Source of the DNA: Accumulibacter sp.
GTDB lineage: Bacteria > Pseudomonadota > Gammaproteobacteria > Burkholderiales > Rhodocyclaceae
NCBI GenBank assembly: GCA_024235715.1
Contig: JACKLW010000005.1
Coordinates: forward strand, 868,001 to 932,000
Length of the DNA stretch: 64,000 nt
Reading direction: 5' to 3'
Below are positions 55,972 to 62,371 of the stretch, piece after piece. Position numbers and translations under genes: made by a program. Under the pieces are notes generated by a model. It was given only the letters and a program-made list of their open reading frames with translations, did not search any database and was not told the DNA's origin. Position 1 is the stretch's first letter. Each line of letters opens with the position of its first letter.

Positions 55972-57297
55972 TCAGCGAAAGCGCTCGACGACGATTCCGT
56001 GGCGAGTCAGTTTGTCGTACAGGGTCTTTTTTGGCGTTTGCAGCGATTCCGCGGTGTCGGCGACGTTGCCTTTGCACTGCCTCAGGGCTTCTTCGATGAT
56101 CTGCTTCTCGGCGCGATCGACGCATGCGGCCAGCGAGAAGGACGAGGCCGGGGTGTCGACCGGGAACAGCGCATCGGGCAGACCGAGCGCGCAGCGTTCG
56201 GCGACATTCTTCAGTTCGCGGACATTGCCTGGCCAGTCGTGCGCGCCCCAGCGCAGGAGATCGGCCGGAGTCCAGCTGACCAGCGGACGCTGGTAACGCT
56301 GCGCGGCCTCCTGCAGAAAATGCGCCATCAGCAGCGGGATGTCCTCACGATGATCGCGCAAGGCGGGCAGGTCGATGCTGACCACCCCCAGTCGGTAATA
56401 GAGGTCGGCGCGAAACTGACCCGCGTCGGACAGGGCCTTGAGATCGACCTTGCTGGCGGCCACCAGTCGGCAGTCGACGGCAATGCTCTGATTGCTGCCC
56501 AGGCGCTCCAGGCATCGCTCCTGCAGGACGCGCAGGAGCTTGACCTGCAGATTGAGCGGCATCGATTCGATTTCGTCGAGAAAGAGCGTGCCGCCGCTGG
56601 CGTGCTCGATGCGCCCGATGCGCCGCCTGCCAGCGCCCGTGAAAGCGCCGGCTTCGTGGCCGAAAAGCTCGCTTTCGACGACGCTTTCCGGCAGAGCGCC
56701 GCAGTTGATGGCCACGAAGGGGCCGCGCTGACCACTGGCTTCATGGATGGCCCTGGCGACGACCTCCTTGCCACAACCGGTTTCGCCGTTGATCAGGATA
56801 TCGACGCCCGTCGGCGCCAGGTTCGCCACCAGCCGGCGCACATTCTGCATCGCCGCCGACTGCCCGATGATGCGCGCGATGCCGTCGCCGAGGCGCGCCT
56901 TGAGCTCGCGGTTCTCGAGGATCAGCGCGCGTCTTTCCAGCGCACTCCTGACCGCGGCGACCAGCCGTTCGGACGGGAACGGCTTTTCAATGAAGTCGTA
57001 GGCACCTTCACGCATCGCTTCGACAGCCATCGCCACGTCGCCGTGGCCGGTCATCAGCAGCACCGGCAACTCGCGGTCGCAGTCATGCAAACGACGCAGC
57101 AGCGCCAGGCCGTCGAGTCCTGGCAGGCGCACGTCGCTGACCACCAGCGCCGGGCTTGTCGAAGCGAATGCAGCCAGCATGACTTCGCCGTCGCCAAAAC
57201 CACGCACCGGGATGTCTGCCAGCGACAAGGCCTGTTCGCAGCCCTTGCGGACGGCGGCGTCGTCCTCGACCAGGAAGACCGGCGCCTCAAGCGCCAT
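55972..57297 (-). CDS. DctD-like sigma54-dependent response regulator
   Basis: 441 residues in NtrC order. The receiver domain (1-120) has VVSDVRLPGLDG with the phosphoryl Asp. The AAA+ domain (about 140-365) has Walker A GETGCGKE, the sigma54-contact loop GAFTGA, and Walker B GGTLFLDEIES. A Fis-type helix-turn-helix ends the protein (CKGNVADTAESLQTPKKTLYDKL). All activator features are intact. It should switch on sigma54 promoters, most obviously that of the TAXI-TRAP genes just downstream. Its start overlaps the end of the PAS histidine kinase gene by 11 bases, so that kinase is its likely partner. Confidence 0.95.
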   Translation of the reverse strand: MALEAPVFLVEDDAAVRKGCEQALSLADIPVRGFGDGEVMLAAFASTSPALVVSDVRLPGLDGLALLRRLHDCDRELPVLLMTGHGDVAMAVEAMREGAYDFIEKPFPSERLVAAVRSALERRALILENRELKARLGDGIARIIGQSAAMQNVRRLVANLAPTGVDILINGETGCGKEVVARAIHEASGQRGPFVAINCGALPESVVESELFGHEAGAFTGAGRRRIGRIEHASGGTLFLDEIESMPLNLQVKLLRVLQERCLERLGSNQSIAVDCRLVAASKVDLKALSDAGQFRADLYYRLGVVSIDLPALRDHREDIPLLMAHFLQEAAQRYQRPLVSWTPADLLRWGAHDWPGNVRELKNVAERCALGLPDALFPVDTPASSFSLAACVDRAEKQIIEEALRQCKGNVADTAESLQTPKKTLYDKLTRHGIVVERFR

Positions 57298-58852
57298 CGA
57301 TCACGTCATCGCCGAGCGCGCAATCGATCGGCAGAGTGACGCGGAAACAGCAGCCGCCCCCGGGCTGCGCGCGCACTTCGATGCGTCCATGGTGACGCTG
57401 AACGATGCTGTACGAAAGCGACAAACCCAGCCCGGTACCCTGACCGCCCGGTTTGGTGGTAAAAAACGGTTCGAAGACACGGGCCACATTCTCCGGGGCG
57501 ATGCCCGTACCGTTGTCGCTGACTTCGACCCACACGGTCTCTGCGTCGCAGCCGGTTCTGATGATGATCCGGCCATAGTCCTCGATCGCCTGTGCGGCAT
57601 TGAGCAGCAGGTTCATGAATACCTGATTGATCTGCGAGGGCGCGCAGTTCACCAGCGGCAGTTCGCCGTAGCGCTTCTCCACCTTTGCCTTGTGCTTGAT
57701 TTCGTGCCAGACGATGTTCAGCGTGCTTTCCAGACCCTGATGCAGGTCGCAGCACTGCCAGTTCGGCTCGCCCGGCCGCGCGAAGTCCTTGAGGTCGAAG
57801 ATGATGCGGCGCACGCGGTCCAGACCCTCAAGCGACTCATCGACCAGGCGCTTCATGTCCGCGCACAGCTCCGTGTAACCGATTTCCTTCTTGATCTGCT
57901 CGACCCGGGCAGTGCACTCGCTACTATGCGAGCCGCCTTGTTCATAGGCATCCAATACCCGCAGCAGATCGTCAGCATACCTGCCCAAGAGACCGAGATT
58001 GGAGAGAGCGAAACCGACCGGATTGTCCACCTCGTGGGCGACCCCGGTGGCCAGCTGACCGATCGCCGCCATCTTCTCCAGTTGTCCGACCGCCGCCATC
58101 TTCTCCGATTGCAGCAGCCGGTCGTGTGCCTCCGCGAGCTTGCCCTGGGCGATCTTGTGTTCAGTCAGGTCGGTGAACACGCCCACCAGATGCGTGAGCA
58201 TGCCATCGCTGTCATGGATCTTCGTGATCGAGAGAGACTGCGGGTAGAGCGAGCCGTCCTTGCGCCGGTTGATGAGTTCCCCATGCCAGCAGCCCTCCTC
58301 CAGGATCGACGTCCACATGCGGTCGTAAAAGGCACGCCCATGCTCACCCGAACGCAGCAGACGCGGCGTCAGGCCGCGTGCTTCGGCCGCCGAATAGCCG
58401 GTAATCGCGGTAAAAGCGTGATTGACGCGGACGATGACGCCATCGGGCCGGGTGACCATGACCCCTTCCAGGGCGCTCTCGAGCACCTGATCGGCCAGCG
58501 CCAGTTGTTCCTGCATCGCGTATCGCGCCGTGGTGTCGCGCAGGCTGACTGCGGTTGCCGGCTGCCCGAGCCAGTCGAAGCTCGAGGCGCGCAGCTCGGC
58601 CCGGCCGATACAGCCCGTGCGATCGATATACTCGATTTCGGCATGCCGGCCATCCGGCGTGATCGGCAGACCGAGATCCCTTCCGACGAGTTCTCGGCCA
58701 GCGAACATGTGATACGCGCCACGGTTGGCGTAGAGGACGATGCCCGATAGGTCCAGCACCAGGATGCCATCCGGGATGGCCTCCAGCAAGCCAAGGGTGG
58801 TCTGTTCGTCGTACGAAGAAACCTGTGGAAGCGAGTACAAATGGTTGGTCAT
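57287..58852 (-). CDS. Soluble PAS-PAS sensor histidine kinase
   Basis: 521 residues without membrane helices. PAS1 (about 15-110) and PAS2 (about 120-232) are followed by a coiled coil and the phosphoacceptor His273 in GVAHEVDNPVGFALSNL. The HATPase domain has NLLLNAAQAIEDYG, VSDNGTGIAPENV, FEPFFTTKPGGQGTGLGLSLS, all intact. The PAS pair is closely similar to that of the KaiA-like protein encoded 2 kb upstream. Residues 250-267 are a tandem duplication just before the H box. It ends inside the DctD-like gene start. It is separated from kaiC by 215 bases and may have its own promoter. Confidence 0.95.
   Translation of the reverse strand: MTNHLYSLPQVSSYDEQTTLGLLEAIPDGILVLDLSGIVLYANRGAYHMFAGRELVGRDLGLPITPDGRHAEIEYIDRTGCIGRAELRASSFDWLGQPATAVSLRDTTARYAMQEQLALADQVLESALEGVMVTRPDGVIVRVNHAFTAITGYSAAEARGLTPRLLRSGEHGRAFYDRMWTSILEEGCWHGELINRRKDGSLYPQSLSITKIHDSDGMLTHLVGVFTDLTEHKIAQGKLAEAHDRLLQSEKMAAVGQLEKMAAIGQLATGVAHEVDNPVGFALSNLGLLGRYADDLLRVLDAYEQGGSHSSECTARVEQIKKEIGYTELCADMKRLVDESLEGLDRVRRIIFDLKDFARPGEPNWQCCDLHQGLESTLNIVWHEIKHKAKVEKRYGELPLVNCAPSQINQVFMNLLLNAAQAIEDYGRIIIRTGCDAETVWVEVSDNGTGIAPENVARVFEPFFTTKPGGQGTGLGLSLSYSIVQRHHGRIEVRAQPGGGCCFRVTLPIDCALGDDVIDGA
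58052..58105 (-). repeat. 27-base tandem duplication inside the kinase gene
   Basis: Two adjacent 27-base copies (58052-58078 and 58079-58105) match at 24 positions. They encode EKMAAVGQL and EKMAAIGQL, residues 250-258 and 259-267 of the kinase. Most relatives have a single EKMAAIGQLATGVAHE segment. Confidence 0.95.
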
Positions 58853-59067: not shown

Positions 59068-60591
59068 CTACTCGCCCAGTTCTTCCCTGAACAGCGAGCC
59101 CATCCGTTCGATTTCCGGCTGCGAGATCTGCATCGGCTGACCGGAGAGGATCCCGGCGATGCCGTGGAACTGTGCGCCGATGTGCATCCCCTGCCCGTCG
59201 ATGGCGTACTCCCTGATCCCCTTGTCATGCATCGAACCGCGCATCTTGAGCACCGTGATGCCCCGACGCATCTCGCCGAACATCTCCACGTAACGCAGCA
59301 GCAGGATCGAGTCGGTGATGGTGGAAATGTGTTCCTCGGTGATCGAAGCGCCGCCAAGCAGGGTCGGCGTCGTCGACGAGAAAAGCCCGACGATTTCCTG
59401 ATGCTTGATGAACGAGGTGATCCCGATGACAAACTCGCGGAAGCTCTTGCCGGTGGACACCCGCTCGAGCGCGGAAAGGCTGTCCACCGCGACGCGGGTC
59501 GGCTTGAAGGCGCGAATCTCCTTCTTCATCCGGATCAGGTGGTCTTCGAGCCCCATCACCTCCGGGTACACGCAGACCACTTTCAGCCTGCCCTCCTGCT
59601 CCATGGTCTCGAAATCCATGCCCCAGCCGGATGCATTGCGGAAGAGCTGCTCGCGACTCTCTTCAAAGGCAAACAGCAGGCACCGATCGTCCTGCTGCTG
59701 CGCGCCGCTGACGAACGCGGTCACCAGTAGCGTCTTGCCGCAACCAGTCGCCCCCGAGACGAGGATGATCGAGTCGCGGAAAAAGCCACCGCCGCACATT
59801 TCGTCAAGCGTGTGGTTTCCGGACGTGACACGCAAGGTCGACGACTTCTGCTCGAGCTTGGTCTCGGAGAGCGGAATGATCACCACGCCCTCGCCGGGAA
59901 TGACCGTGAACGGGAACTCGCCCTTGGCGTGGTCGGTACCCCGGAACTTGAGGATTTCCAGCGTCCTGCGCCGCTTTTCGTCATCGAGGACGTTACGCAG
60001 GATGATCACATTGTCGGCGACGAACTCCTCGACGCCAAAGCGGGCCAGAGGGCCGTACTCCTCCGTTCTCTCGGCCGTCAGGAGCGCCGTCACGGCCATC
60101 TTCTTCAGCGCCACCGCCATGCGATAGAGCTCGCCGCGAACCGTCGCGACGTCCGAGAACTGACTGAATACCGCTCCCAGGGAGTCGACCGATACGCGTT
60201 GGCCCTGCACCTTGCCGACCGCATACTCGATGCGTGCCAACAGCGCGCCCAGATCGTAACTCCCGGCCTCGACAAGCTCCTGCTCCGGTTGCGGACTGGC
60301 GTCTACGAAGGCCAGTTTACCGTCGCCCACGAACTGCTCGAGGTTCCAGCCGAAGCTGAGCATATTGCTCATGATATTCTCCGGCGACTCTTCGAAGGTG
60401 ACAAAGACGCCGCCCTCGCCCCGGCGGATCCCCTCGACAAGAAACTGGACGGCAAAGACAGTCTTGGAGCTTCCCGCGGTTCCCGACAGGAGGCAGGTGC
60501 GACCCTTGGGAAGGCCACCCACGGAGACATGCTCGAAACCGGGGATGCCGGTTTCGAGCTTTTCCACTGCAGTGATCGCTGAGCCCGACAT
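59068..60591 (-). CDS. kaiC: Circadian clock protein KaiC
   Basis: 507 residues with two RecA-like ATPase domains. CI (1-245) has the Walker A GTAGSSKT at 37-44 and catalytic Glu67-Glu68 in TFEES; CII (246-507) has GATGCGKT at 280-287 and Glu310-Glu311 in FAFEES. The phosphorylation sites of cyanobacterial KaiC are kept: Ser423 and Thr424 in EEHISTITDS, with Thr418 matching Thr426. The C-terminal tail after 480 is shorter than in S. elongatus (519). In the first Walker motif a Ser replaces the usual Gly before Lys. It should form a hexamer that autophosphorylates and binds KaiB. It lies three bases after kaiB. Confidence 0.97.
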   Translation of the reverse strand: MSGSAITAVEKLETGIPGFEHVSVGGLPKGRTCLLSGTAGSSKTVFAVQFLVEGIRRGEGGVFVTFEESPENIMSNMLSFGWNLEQFVGDGKLAFVDASPQPEQELVEAGSYDLGALLARIEYAVGKVQGQRVSVDSLGAVFSQFSDVATVRGELYRMAVALKKMAVTALLTAERTEEYGPLARFGVEEFVADNVIILRNVLDDEKRRRTLEILKFRGTDHAKGEFPFTVIPGEGVVIIPLSETKLEQKSSTLRVTSGNHTLDEMCGGGFFRDSIILVSGATGCGKTLLVTAFVSGAQQQDDRCLLFAFEESREQLFRNASGWGMDFETMEQEGRLKVVCVYPEVMGLEDHLIRMKKEIRAFKPTRVAVDSLSALERVSTGKSFREFVIGITSFIKHQEIVGLFSSTTPTLLGGASITEEHISTITDSILLLRYVEMFGEMRRGITVLKMRGSMHDKGIREYAIDGQGMHIGAQFHGIAGILSGQPMQISQPEIERMGSLFREELGE

Positions 60592-60594
60592 GCG

Positions 60595-60897
60595 CTATTT
60601 CCCCCTTCCTTCGTTGCTCTCACCCACCGCGGCGATGTCAAGCCCGAGCAGGACCTTCTCCGTATCGCTGAGATCCCCGATGACCCGCCGCAAGGGCGGC
60701 GGCAGCTCTTTTACCAGGGTCGGGGTAGCGAGTATCTTCTGATCCTCTGCCAACTGCGGCTGTTCGAGGACGTCTATCACGGTCATTTCGTACTTCCCCT
60801 GCAGTTCCTCCGCGCAGATCCTCTGCAGGTTCCGAATCCCTTTCTCCGAGCGCGGCGTATGCCCCGTCACATAGAGCGTAAGCCTGAATTTGTTCAT
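60595..60897 (-). CDS. kaiB: Circadian clock protein KaiB
   Basis: 100 residues, close to cyanobacterial KaiB (102). The thioredoxin-like fold-switch protein is clear from [52 protein letters not shown] and [17 protein letters not shown]. KaiB binds the KaiC CI ring in the night-like state and sequesters KaiA in cyanobacteria. Its start overlaps the stop of the KaiA-like gene (ATGA) and its stop is three bases before kaiC. Confidence 0.98.
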
Positions 60898-62117
60898 GTG
60901 GATTCCTTTCTGGGCCGCCTTTGCACTGCTTTCGTGTTTCGGTCCCGTACATTGCCGGCAGCGACCGGGATGCGGGAGTAGTTCTTGCGATAGAAGGACA
61001 ACAGGTTCCCCATCAGTTCGAGCACCAGGAAGCGGCCTTCTTCGACCATCGCCTTCGCTTTCATTGCCGGGACGTTCCTGGACTTTTTCGTCAGCGTCTC
61101 GGAGTGCAGTTCAGCGACGTCGCGCGCGCCGGCCTGCAGATAACCGAGATCCTCGGCAAGTGACCGCAGCTGATCGGAAACGGGATTTTCCGCCTTGAGG
61201 GCCAGATTCTCGACGGCCAGATCCAGCGTCCTGCCGTATCTCTGCACCAGTTCGTCAAAAACTCCCCTGGCGGAGCGTGAAAGGGGTGCCGAACCATACA
61301 TGCCGCCGACGACGGATAGTACAGGAGAGTTAGCCGCGCGATACCGTCTCTCGATCTCTTCACGGAGCTTTTCCGACTGCTGCAGCTGGAGGTGAGCATC
61401 CTCAAGCGTCGCCTGGTCGATCTTGTGCTGGGTGAGGTCGAAAATGATACCGACCAGATGCGTCACCTGGCCGTCGGCGTCCTTGATTTGCGAGATCGAG
61501 AGCAGTTCCGGATAGAGCGAGCCGTCCTTGCGTCGGCTGACGAGTTCACCCTGCCAGAACCCCTGCTCGGCAATCGACGCCCACATCCGTTCGTAGAAGG
61601 CGCGATCCTGCTGGCCGGATGCCAGCAGACGCGGCGTGTTGCCGAGCGCTTCTTCAGCGGAATAGCCGGTGATTGCCGTAAAGGCGCGATTGACGCTGAC
61701 GATGACACCATCGGGTCGGGTAACGATGATGGCTTCACGGGCACTCTCGAAGACCTGGCCAGCCAACGCCAACTGCGCCTCCTTGGCACGTCGCCCGCTG
61801 ACGTCACGCAGGCTGGCGACGGTGGCCGCTTGTCCCGACCAGTCGAATGCCGCGGCACGCAGCTCGGCACGACCGATTCGGCCCGCATCGTCGACCACCT
61901 CGATATCCGCATGAGATTCGCCCGCCATGATCGACAGGCCGAGATCCTTTCCCAGCAACCGGCGGTCACCAAACATGCGCTGAGCACTGTCGTTGGCATA
62001 GAGAACGATTCCCGTCGCATCGAGCACGACGATGCCGTCCGGCATTGCCGCGACCAGGCTTAGAAGCGCCTCCGTGTCGAAGGAGGGACCTTTTTGATTT
62101 TTTGGACCCAGTCTCAT
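60894..62117 (-). CDS. PAS-PAS protein with C-terminal KaiA/RsbU-like helical domain
   Basis: 407 residues, no membrane helix and no kinase boxes. PAS1 (about 15-108) and PAS2 (118-232) are followed by a short coiled coil (233-262). The C-terminal domain (about 283-384) is all helical. Its pattern [14 protein letters not shown]... AEDLG... [12 protein letters not shown]... [26 protein letters not shown] parallels the C-terminal four-helix domain of KaiA (V-x-x-V-V-E-I-H ... L-x-D-V-I-A-H-L-C-E-M-Y-R-R-S-I-P). The RsbU N-terminal domain of the same superfamily is an alternative. The PAS domains would replace KaiA's pseudo-receiver. It overlaps kaiB (ATGA). The KaiA-like call is inference from motif resemblance. 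Confidence 0.7.
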
Positions 62118-62371
62118 CAGGCAGTCAAAGGATTATCTGTCGTCGCCTCCGTGGCCTGCAGGCGGCGCAAGGTTTCGACGCCGTCGGGCCGCTTGGCCAG
62201 CGTCAATTTTCCGCCAGCATTTTCCATCAACTGACGAGAAACCGCCAGTCCCGTCCCAGTCCCGTGCGGCTGCCGCCAACACTGCTGGCGAAAAACGGAT
62301 CGAAGGCCCGGGCCATGGCGGTTTCCGGCGTGCCAGGACCATGCCGGGCGATACGCGAATTGTCGCACGGC
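62117..62371 (-). pseudogene. Remnant of a histidine-kinase catalytic domain
   Basis: The minus strand encodes the end of a HATPase domain in two frames: CDNSRIARHGPGTPETAMARAFDPFFASSVGGSRTG-like sequence up to the Gly-rich loop, then, after a one-frame shift within GGGACTGGGACGGGACTGG, GTGLAVSRQLMENAGGKLTLAKRP to a TGA. That TGA overlaps the ATG of the KaiA-like gene. No His box or upstream kinase part remains, because the dctB stop is at 62372. It looks like the 3' stub of a deleted kinase gene. Confidence 0.75.

Follow-up and report, generated by a model that had tools for sequence, protein, structure and literature searches.

KaiA is the component usually thought to be missing from KaiB-KaiC systems outside of cyanobacteria. 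KaiA3 proteins have nevertheless been reported in Rhodospirillum, Bradyrhizobium, Roseiflexus, Chloroflexus and Chloroherpeton (Kobler 2024, PMC11372060), and KaiA with a kaiABC operon has been reported outside of cyanobacteria, e.g., in Propionibacteriaceae and Planctomycetaceae bacteria (PMC8113500), a study that also records REC, AtoC and PHA02030 as further N-terminal domains on KaiA. The KaiC2 subgroup is described as carrying a C-terminal extension and autophosphorylating without KaiA (PMC10076222), and the same independence from KaiA is reported for the KaiC of R. palustris (PMC4794148). Here, we describe a kai locus located in a stretch of 64,000 nucleotides from Accumulibacter sp. (assembly GCA_024235715.1, contig JACKLW010000005.1, positions 868,001 to 932,000 of the forward strand; hereafter the window), in which kaiB and kaiC are preceded by a gene encoding a protein with two PAS domains and a putative KaiA-like helical C-terminus. 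An original prediction, made from the sequence of the window, took KaiA to be essentially cyanobacterial, a premise that the reports cited above make outdated.

This first gene probably encodes a KaiA3-like protein that would activate a short-tailed KaiC in trans, and in which a PAS pair of common origin with that of the neighbouring histidine kinase has taken the place of the receiver (REC) input. The locus combines the gene order of kai systems with a C-terminal domain homologous to receiver-linked proteins of other kai loci, a PAS pair where these proteins have a receiver, the presence of this same type of PAS pair in the adjacent kinase, and a KaiC with a short tail. Three open reading frames (ORFs) follow one another on the minus strand, 62117..60894 (407 amino acids), 60897..60595 (100 amino acids) and 60591..59068 (507 amino acids); the first shares an ATGA overlap with kaiB and a gap of three bases separates kaiB from kaiC, so that the ORF coordinates agree with the tight packing noticed originally. 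The named relatives of the locus are Candidatus Accumulibacter, in agreement with the betaproteobacterial host that had been proposed. The features of the three genes are the following:

60894..62117, minus strand: PAS-PAS-coil-KaiA3-like protein of 407 amino acids, proposed KaiC activator with sensor input (ORF, two Pfam PAS domains, C-terminal family)
61803..62060, minus strand: PAS1, residues ~20-105, limits approximate (Pfam PAS_8 and others)
61425..61757, minus strand: PAS2, residues 121-231 (Pfam, sequence matches to solved structures)
60972..61277, minus strand: KaiA-C/RsbU-N-like helical core of 102 amino acids, residues ~281-382 (alignment A5, profile tests)
60595..60897, minus strand: kaiB, overlapping the preceding gene by ATGA (ORF and family models)
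59068..60591, minus strand: kaiC, 507 amino acids, with a short C-terminal tail, the phosphosite HISTITD and the CI Walker A motif GTAGSSKT (ORF and family models)

The N-terminus of the 407-amino acid protein consists of two PAS stretches (best Pfam E-value 2.2e-26) with no receiver domain there, and its C-terminus gave no match in a Pfam scan. The connection with other kai loci is provided by a bridge protein (L009) from the same class as the window genome, composed of a receiver and a helical domain and encoded before kaiB-kaiC. L009 matches the window domain in BLASTP (4e-9) and is the sole protein in 274 genomes of the class to approach the KaiA model PF07688 (E-value 6.6e-4 for one genome; 21.3 bits for a cut-off of 22.2). 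A profile including L009 led to three further loci of this type in the 274 genomes (L042, L043 and L045); the match L044 (E-value 6e-4), chemoreceptor-like by eye and apparently due to chance, was dropped. With the core profile A5, 26 of 398 genomes of the phylum matched at E ≤ 0.01, and 22 matched strongly (E < 1e-19), the window's own genome being included in both counts. Four weak matches (E-values 0.0036-0.009; L068-L071), namely three RsmI methylases and one DUF802 protein, were excluded. A5 also matched three of the four genomes from a single family within the class (that of G176), two of which had already been found.

The resulting family comprises 36 distinct loci in Pseudomonadota, leaving out L040 (E-value 0.0023, with two stops), L041, L046, L076, L077, L079 and L117-L120 (copies of loci already counted), a fragment in G423:C26 (E-value 1.2e-4) and a second strong copy in G469:C364 (E-value 3.6e-23), which had no separate locus and was later seen in L095 beside kaiB and kaiC. 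Genes for KaiB and KaiC are present within ~1.5 kb at 35 of the 36 loci, the sole locus without them alongside, L072, being at a contig edge; the kai neighbourhood of the strong domain matches (E < 1e-19) is thus more than chance. According to Pfam, the N-terminus is a Response_reg domain in 31 members and PAS in five, all of them from Accumulibacter, in which the core is 77-93% identical to that of the window. The order PAS protein-kaiB-kaiC was found in five of 61 genomes searched (own included), all from this one genus, and the same five carry a matching KaiC (at least 90% identity) and the C-terminal domain; a profile search of the 61 genomes detected no further case of this domain. Searches of plasmids with KaiA-C and three domains of the family gave no match, and the full L009 protein matched 635 plasmid records, with the 20 matches listed falling within residues 1-133 of the query, i.e., its receiver part.

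Four loci (L091, L095, L106 and L109) contain tandem kai clusters with two successive KaiCs of unlike type. L095, L106 and L109 contain separate KaiA-like and KaiB genes for each of the two KaiCs; therefore, two KaiC types may operate in parallel. In L086, L088, L089, L093, L094, L097 and L100, kaiC is followed by an additional kaiB-like gene, which is divergent (32-42% identity).

The KaiC of the window is a double-domain protein (Pfam E-value 1.6e-108, above both NCBIfam KaiC cut-offs) that retains both catalytic glutamate pairs (FEES and FEES) and the Ser-Thr phosphosite (HISTITD), as had been read from the sequence. KaiB was also correctly recognized, since it matches PF07689 (E-value 5.5e-29) and passes PRK09301 (112.9 bits for a cut-off of 110), although it misses TIGR02654 (109.9 versus 145.3 bits). 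The earlier picture of KaiC has to be corrected for the Walker A motif of the CI domain, which is not canonical (GTAGSSKT, without the usual glycine before the lysine). At the family loci, this motif reads GTAGSAKT in 18 of 35 KaiCs, GSSGSGKT in eight and GTAGSSKT in four, together with four single variants and one gap.

KaiC (ORFs above 350 amino acids) was read in 31 stretches, which include 33 of the 36 loci but not L064, L072 and L075; one shorter piece, in L092, was left out. Counted from the marker QPMQIS, the tail is short in all 35 KaiCs (18-29 residues); that of the window, included in this count, has 23 residues and no KaiC2-type extension of ~50 residues. The five KaiCs from relatives without the family all have tails of 88-101 residues (5/5), a contrast weakened by resting on five cases, with distant KaiC matches such as G030:C26 and G004:C127 outside of the comparison. 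The genes in question (L112-L116), from relatives in the same genus, family or order, encode long-tailed KaiC2-type proteins, and each of them adjoins one or two kaiB genes; no KaiA-like domain was found in these five genomes by profile search. The short tail of the window KaiC fits a KaiA-type activator, the contrast in tail length fits the published split between KaiC2 and other KaiCs, and a KaiA-free system of the KaiC2 type was rejected because this tail is short.

The assignment of the helical domain relies on the profile of the whole family. In local hhalign comparisons, this profile scored 25.9 against KaiA-C over 90 columns (maximum of 17.8 in 150 column shuffles, 12.5 when reversed) and 26.5 against RsbU-N over 63 columns (shuffle maximum 15.0, reversed 15.2), whereas global scores were 23.1 for KaiA and 14.8 for RsbU. 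Three single KaiA sequences scored 20.7-23.6, compared with a maximum of 16.5 for 159 natural fragments of long window ORFs, some of which are not certain genes. A search of the Protein Data Bank (PDB) with the profile including L009 placed KaiA (1q6a) on top at an E-value of 0.043, four of the six matches being KaiA. In the alignment of the 36 members, KaiA Tyr276 is matched in all rows, Arg277 and Arg262 in 35 each, the position of Asp260 is Asp or Glu in all 36 and that of Asp267 is Glu in 33. The motif spacing on which the original prediction was based holds in part: E-x-H and F-Y-R-K align with E-I-H and M-Y-R-R of KaiA (38 residues from His to Tyr in the window versus 39 in KaiA, counted by eye), but E-G-R aligns with D-Y-R of KaiA, located ten residues after KaiA's own E-G-R. 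Taken with the position beside kaiBC at 35 of the 36 loci and the short KaiC tail, the scores above shuffled and natural decoys support the KaiA-C/RsbU-N superfamily predicted for this domain.

Several observations weigh against a more specific assignment to KaiA. The profile fixes the superfamily but not KaiA itself, because RsbU-N fits locally as well as KaiA-C, and hhalign probabilities are low (37% for KaiA and 45% for RsbU). The signal is carried only by the wider family and not by the Accumulibacter sequences alone, whose profile shows no similarity to KaiA (hhalign 12.3) and gives only unrelated matches in the PDB; a single-sequence PDB search gave nothing useful. In PDB searches with A5, the unrelated 7bqq (E-value 0.066) outranks KaiA (0.078), and the top four matches obtained with A4 are unrelated, with 5iww at the top. 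Even at E-values of up to 10, PF07688 appears neither for the complete protein of the window nor for its domain; it matches only two of the 36 members at E ≤ 0.1, and its cut-off is passed in none of the 274 class and 398 phylum genomes, L040 (E-value 0.0023, with stops) being its only match in the latter. None of the five sites described as invariant in cyanobacterial KaiA (M241, D242, E251, L265 and D267; PMC8113500) is kept in most of the 36 rows, M241 and D267 being replaced conservatively (L in 30 and E in 33 rows, respectively) and D242, E251 and L265 being variable. In the domain tree, moreover, the branch leading to KaiA is very long (5.27). AlphaFold models, built from alignments of four sequences, reached a mean predicted local distance difference test score of 48 for residues 238-407 and 68 for a 107-residue core, and they match generic helix bundles (designed bundles, syntaxin-type helices and similar); Foldseek found no match at E ≤ 0.001 among the best 50 of 195, and KaiA and RsbU are absent from the best 50 Foldseek and the best 50 VIA matches, the models being too weak for this to carry weight either way. 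On the side of KaiC, the loss of the glycine before the lysine in the CI Walker A motif is odd for a working ATPase and may weaken the CI ATPase activity. The phosphosite does not track the tail split either, since among the 35 family-locus KaiCs 14 have HISTITD and 19 have HFSSITD, the latter short-tailed proteins having two serines as KaiC2.

These results leave room for two other interpretations of the C-terminal domain. It could be functionally RsbU-N-like, binding an RsbT/GHKL-type partner, such as the adjacent PAS kinase, and routing the output of KaiC. The slightly higher local score of RsbU-N and weak matches to PF08673 in two of nine A4 members (best E-value 0.039) point in this direction, and a PAS pair shared with the kinase could mediate hetero-dimer formation. 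However, the window domain did not match PF08673 in the Pfam scan, no PP2C domain follows the helices, the alignment with RsbU-N is shorter and its global score lower than that of KaiA, and the domain occupies the position of kaiA beside kaiBC, at loci where every KaiC is short-tailed (35/35); we therefore consider this function improbable. We regard it as very improbable that the PAS protein ends in a generic helical dimerisation domain, as a degenerated histidine kinase would, is unrelated to KaiA and lies before kaiBC by chance. The absence of a Pfam match for the C-terminus, the plain three-helix bundle modelled at low to moderate confidence and the PAS pair in common with a histidine kinase would fit such a protein, but receiver-linked homologs of its domain occur at the 31 other loci, 30 of which have kaiB and kaiC next to them, KaiA sequences outscore all 159 natural fragments, and the five Accumulibacter cores are conserved at the identities given above. 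A plain kinase remnant was rejected on account of the same homology. A KaiA-like function of the protein is supported mainly by gene context.

The origin of the PAS input can be approached through the genes that surround the kai genes:

57287..58852, minus strand: PAS-PAS histidine kinase gene after kaiC (Pfam, locus comparison)
55972..57297, minus strand: NtrC-type sigma-54 response regulator gene, overlapping the kinase gene (Pfam, locus comparison)
62118..62368, minus strand: frame-broken piece left from the ATPase domain of a histidine kinase (locus comparison)

The PAS pair of the KaiA-like protein is 60% identical to that of the kinase encoded after kaiC, which is its best match in its own genome (63%, E-value 1.5e-90; runner-up 42%, E-value 8.3e-39). 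A tree of the ten PAS pairs, rooted at its midpoint, separates a clade of KaiA-like proteins from a clade of kinases (100/99 each); the duplication therefore appears older than the five Accumulibacter genomes. The two PAS pairs have a common origin, and the donor could be either protein. The KaiC tree, also rooted at the midpoint, joins the Accumulibacter proteins with a sister group of 19 KaiCs from receiver-type loci (99/99 for these 24), and the remaining 11 KaiCs of family loci fall outside, some of them as long branches; in the domain tree the Accumulibacter rows lie among the receiver-linked ones, with a weakly resolved fork. Because both trees nest Accumulibacter among receiver types, the receiver form is the likely ancestor and the PAS form a replacement. 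The best matches of PAS2 among solved structures, by sequence, are 3ewk (a sensor protein), 9qq6 (a histidine kinase) and 2gj3 (a nitrogen fixation regulatory protein; E-value 4.4e-17 with its PAS domain). Since PAS2 resembles the PAS domain of 2gj3, which we take to be NifL carrying flavin adenine dinucleotide, a redox input is a fair guess, no more.

The PAS kinase gene follows kaiC at all five Accumulibacter loci, although in L084 it is incomplete because the contig ends within it. No intact copy of the NtrC-type regulator gene was found beside it at the three other loci where this flank could be read; the fourth locus is truncated by its contig end. A module encoding a histidine kinase, a receiver protein and a second KaiB precedes the KaiA-like gene in G001 and G011 (L081 10456-12668 and L083 10957-13348). 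This module has probably been lost in the window, because the frame-broken scrap at 62118..62368 resembles the end of its kinase.

Based on the KaiA/KaiA3 model, which we apply by analogy (PMC11372060), we infer that the C-terminal helical domain most likely dimerises, binds the short tail or A-loop of KaiC and promotes its autophosphorylation, whereas KaiB would bind phosphorylated KaiC and oppose the activator, as happens in the KaiABC and KaiA3B3C3 systems. Outside of Accumulibacter, the domain follows a receiver in the relatives found, suggesting a two-component input, the place of which would have been taken by the PAS pair in Accumulibacter. Since this pair shares its origin with that of the neighbouring kinase, activation of KaiC is probably gated by a signal that is also read by the kinase; this could be a small-molecule, redox or energy signal. 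Any rhythm would be a further extrapolation from the model. With nearly even chances, the KaiA-like protein only sets the state of KaiC, as part of a switch that responds to stress or energy and neither oscillates nor acts as an hourglass, which would be compatible with its being a KaiA3-like activator. The PAS input in place of a receiver, the altered CI Walker A motif and the few studies in which homologs of KaiB and KaiC are linked to the response to stress (PMC11372060) speak in favour of such a switch, but the Ser-Thr phosphosite, both glutamate pairs and KaiB have all been retained. The three-protein timer of the original prediction is hypothetical. In a more far-reaching form, which we hold to be rather unlikely, a three-protein phosphorylation timer in this non-photosynthetic bacterium would be set directly by redox state or a metabolite, sensed by the PAS domains of its KaiA-like activator, and an output kinase with a sister copy of this sensor would make clock setting and clock output respond to one signal. 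Accumulibacter, a wastewater bacterium, is known for a feast-famine, anaerobic-aerobic way of life rather than for light, and such a timer, if true, would suit the regular alternation of anaerobic and aerobic phases in phosphate-removing sludge. More generally, the family suggests that short-tailed KaiCs of Pseudomonadota have their activator in trans whereas the long-tailed KaiC2 carries its own, and the swap of the input module for a kinase-shared sensor in Accumulibacter raises the question of which signal sets the system.

Among known systems, cyanobacterial KaiA (PF07688) resembles the window protein by the A-B-C gene order (at all five Accumulibacter loci), the helical C-terminal domain and the equivalents of Y276-R277, R262, D260 (D/E) and D267 (E), but the window protein has no pseudo-receiver, does not match PF07688 and does not keep the sites invariant in KaiA. 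The resemblance to RsbU-N (PF08673) is a profile-level similarity over 63 columns, in a protein that differs from RsbU by its kai gene context and the lack of a PP2C phosphatase domain. KaiB-KaiC2 systems without KaiA, such as those of Rhodobacter and R. palustris, also include KaiB and KaiC, and in R. palustris a PAS histidine kinase gene is likewise reported beside kaiBC (PMC4794148); their KaiC2 has a long tail and two serine sites, unlike the window KaiC with its 23 residues from QPMQIS and its Ser-Thr site. In the KaiA3 (Sll0485)-KaiB3-KaiC3 system of Synechocystis and a few other genera, as is proposed for the window protein, a KaiA-like C-terminal domain is joined to an N-terminal input domain that has been exchanged; the gene lies upstream of kaiB and (mostly) kaiC, and KaiC3 is described as lacking the extended C-terminus of KaiC2 (PMC11372060). 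The window locus has the same gene order as kaiA3-kaiB3-kaiC3 (order alone compared), and the 31 receiver-linked members of the family match KaiA3 in architecture and synteny, a comparison made without a cyanobacterial KaiA3 sequence; the difference lies in the input, a NarL-type receiver in KaiA3 and tandem PAS domains in Accumulibacter. In the literature searched, mostly without subscription journals, we found neither a PAS-KaiA protein, nor the sharing of its PAS pair with an adjacent kinase, nor the tail split at such loci. Receiver-type KaiA3 is already known, also outside of cyanobacteria, and what appears to be new here is the PAS input, its sharing with the kinase and the split between short and long KaiC tails.

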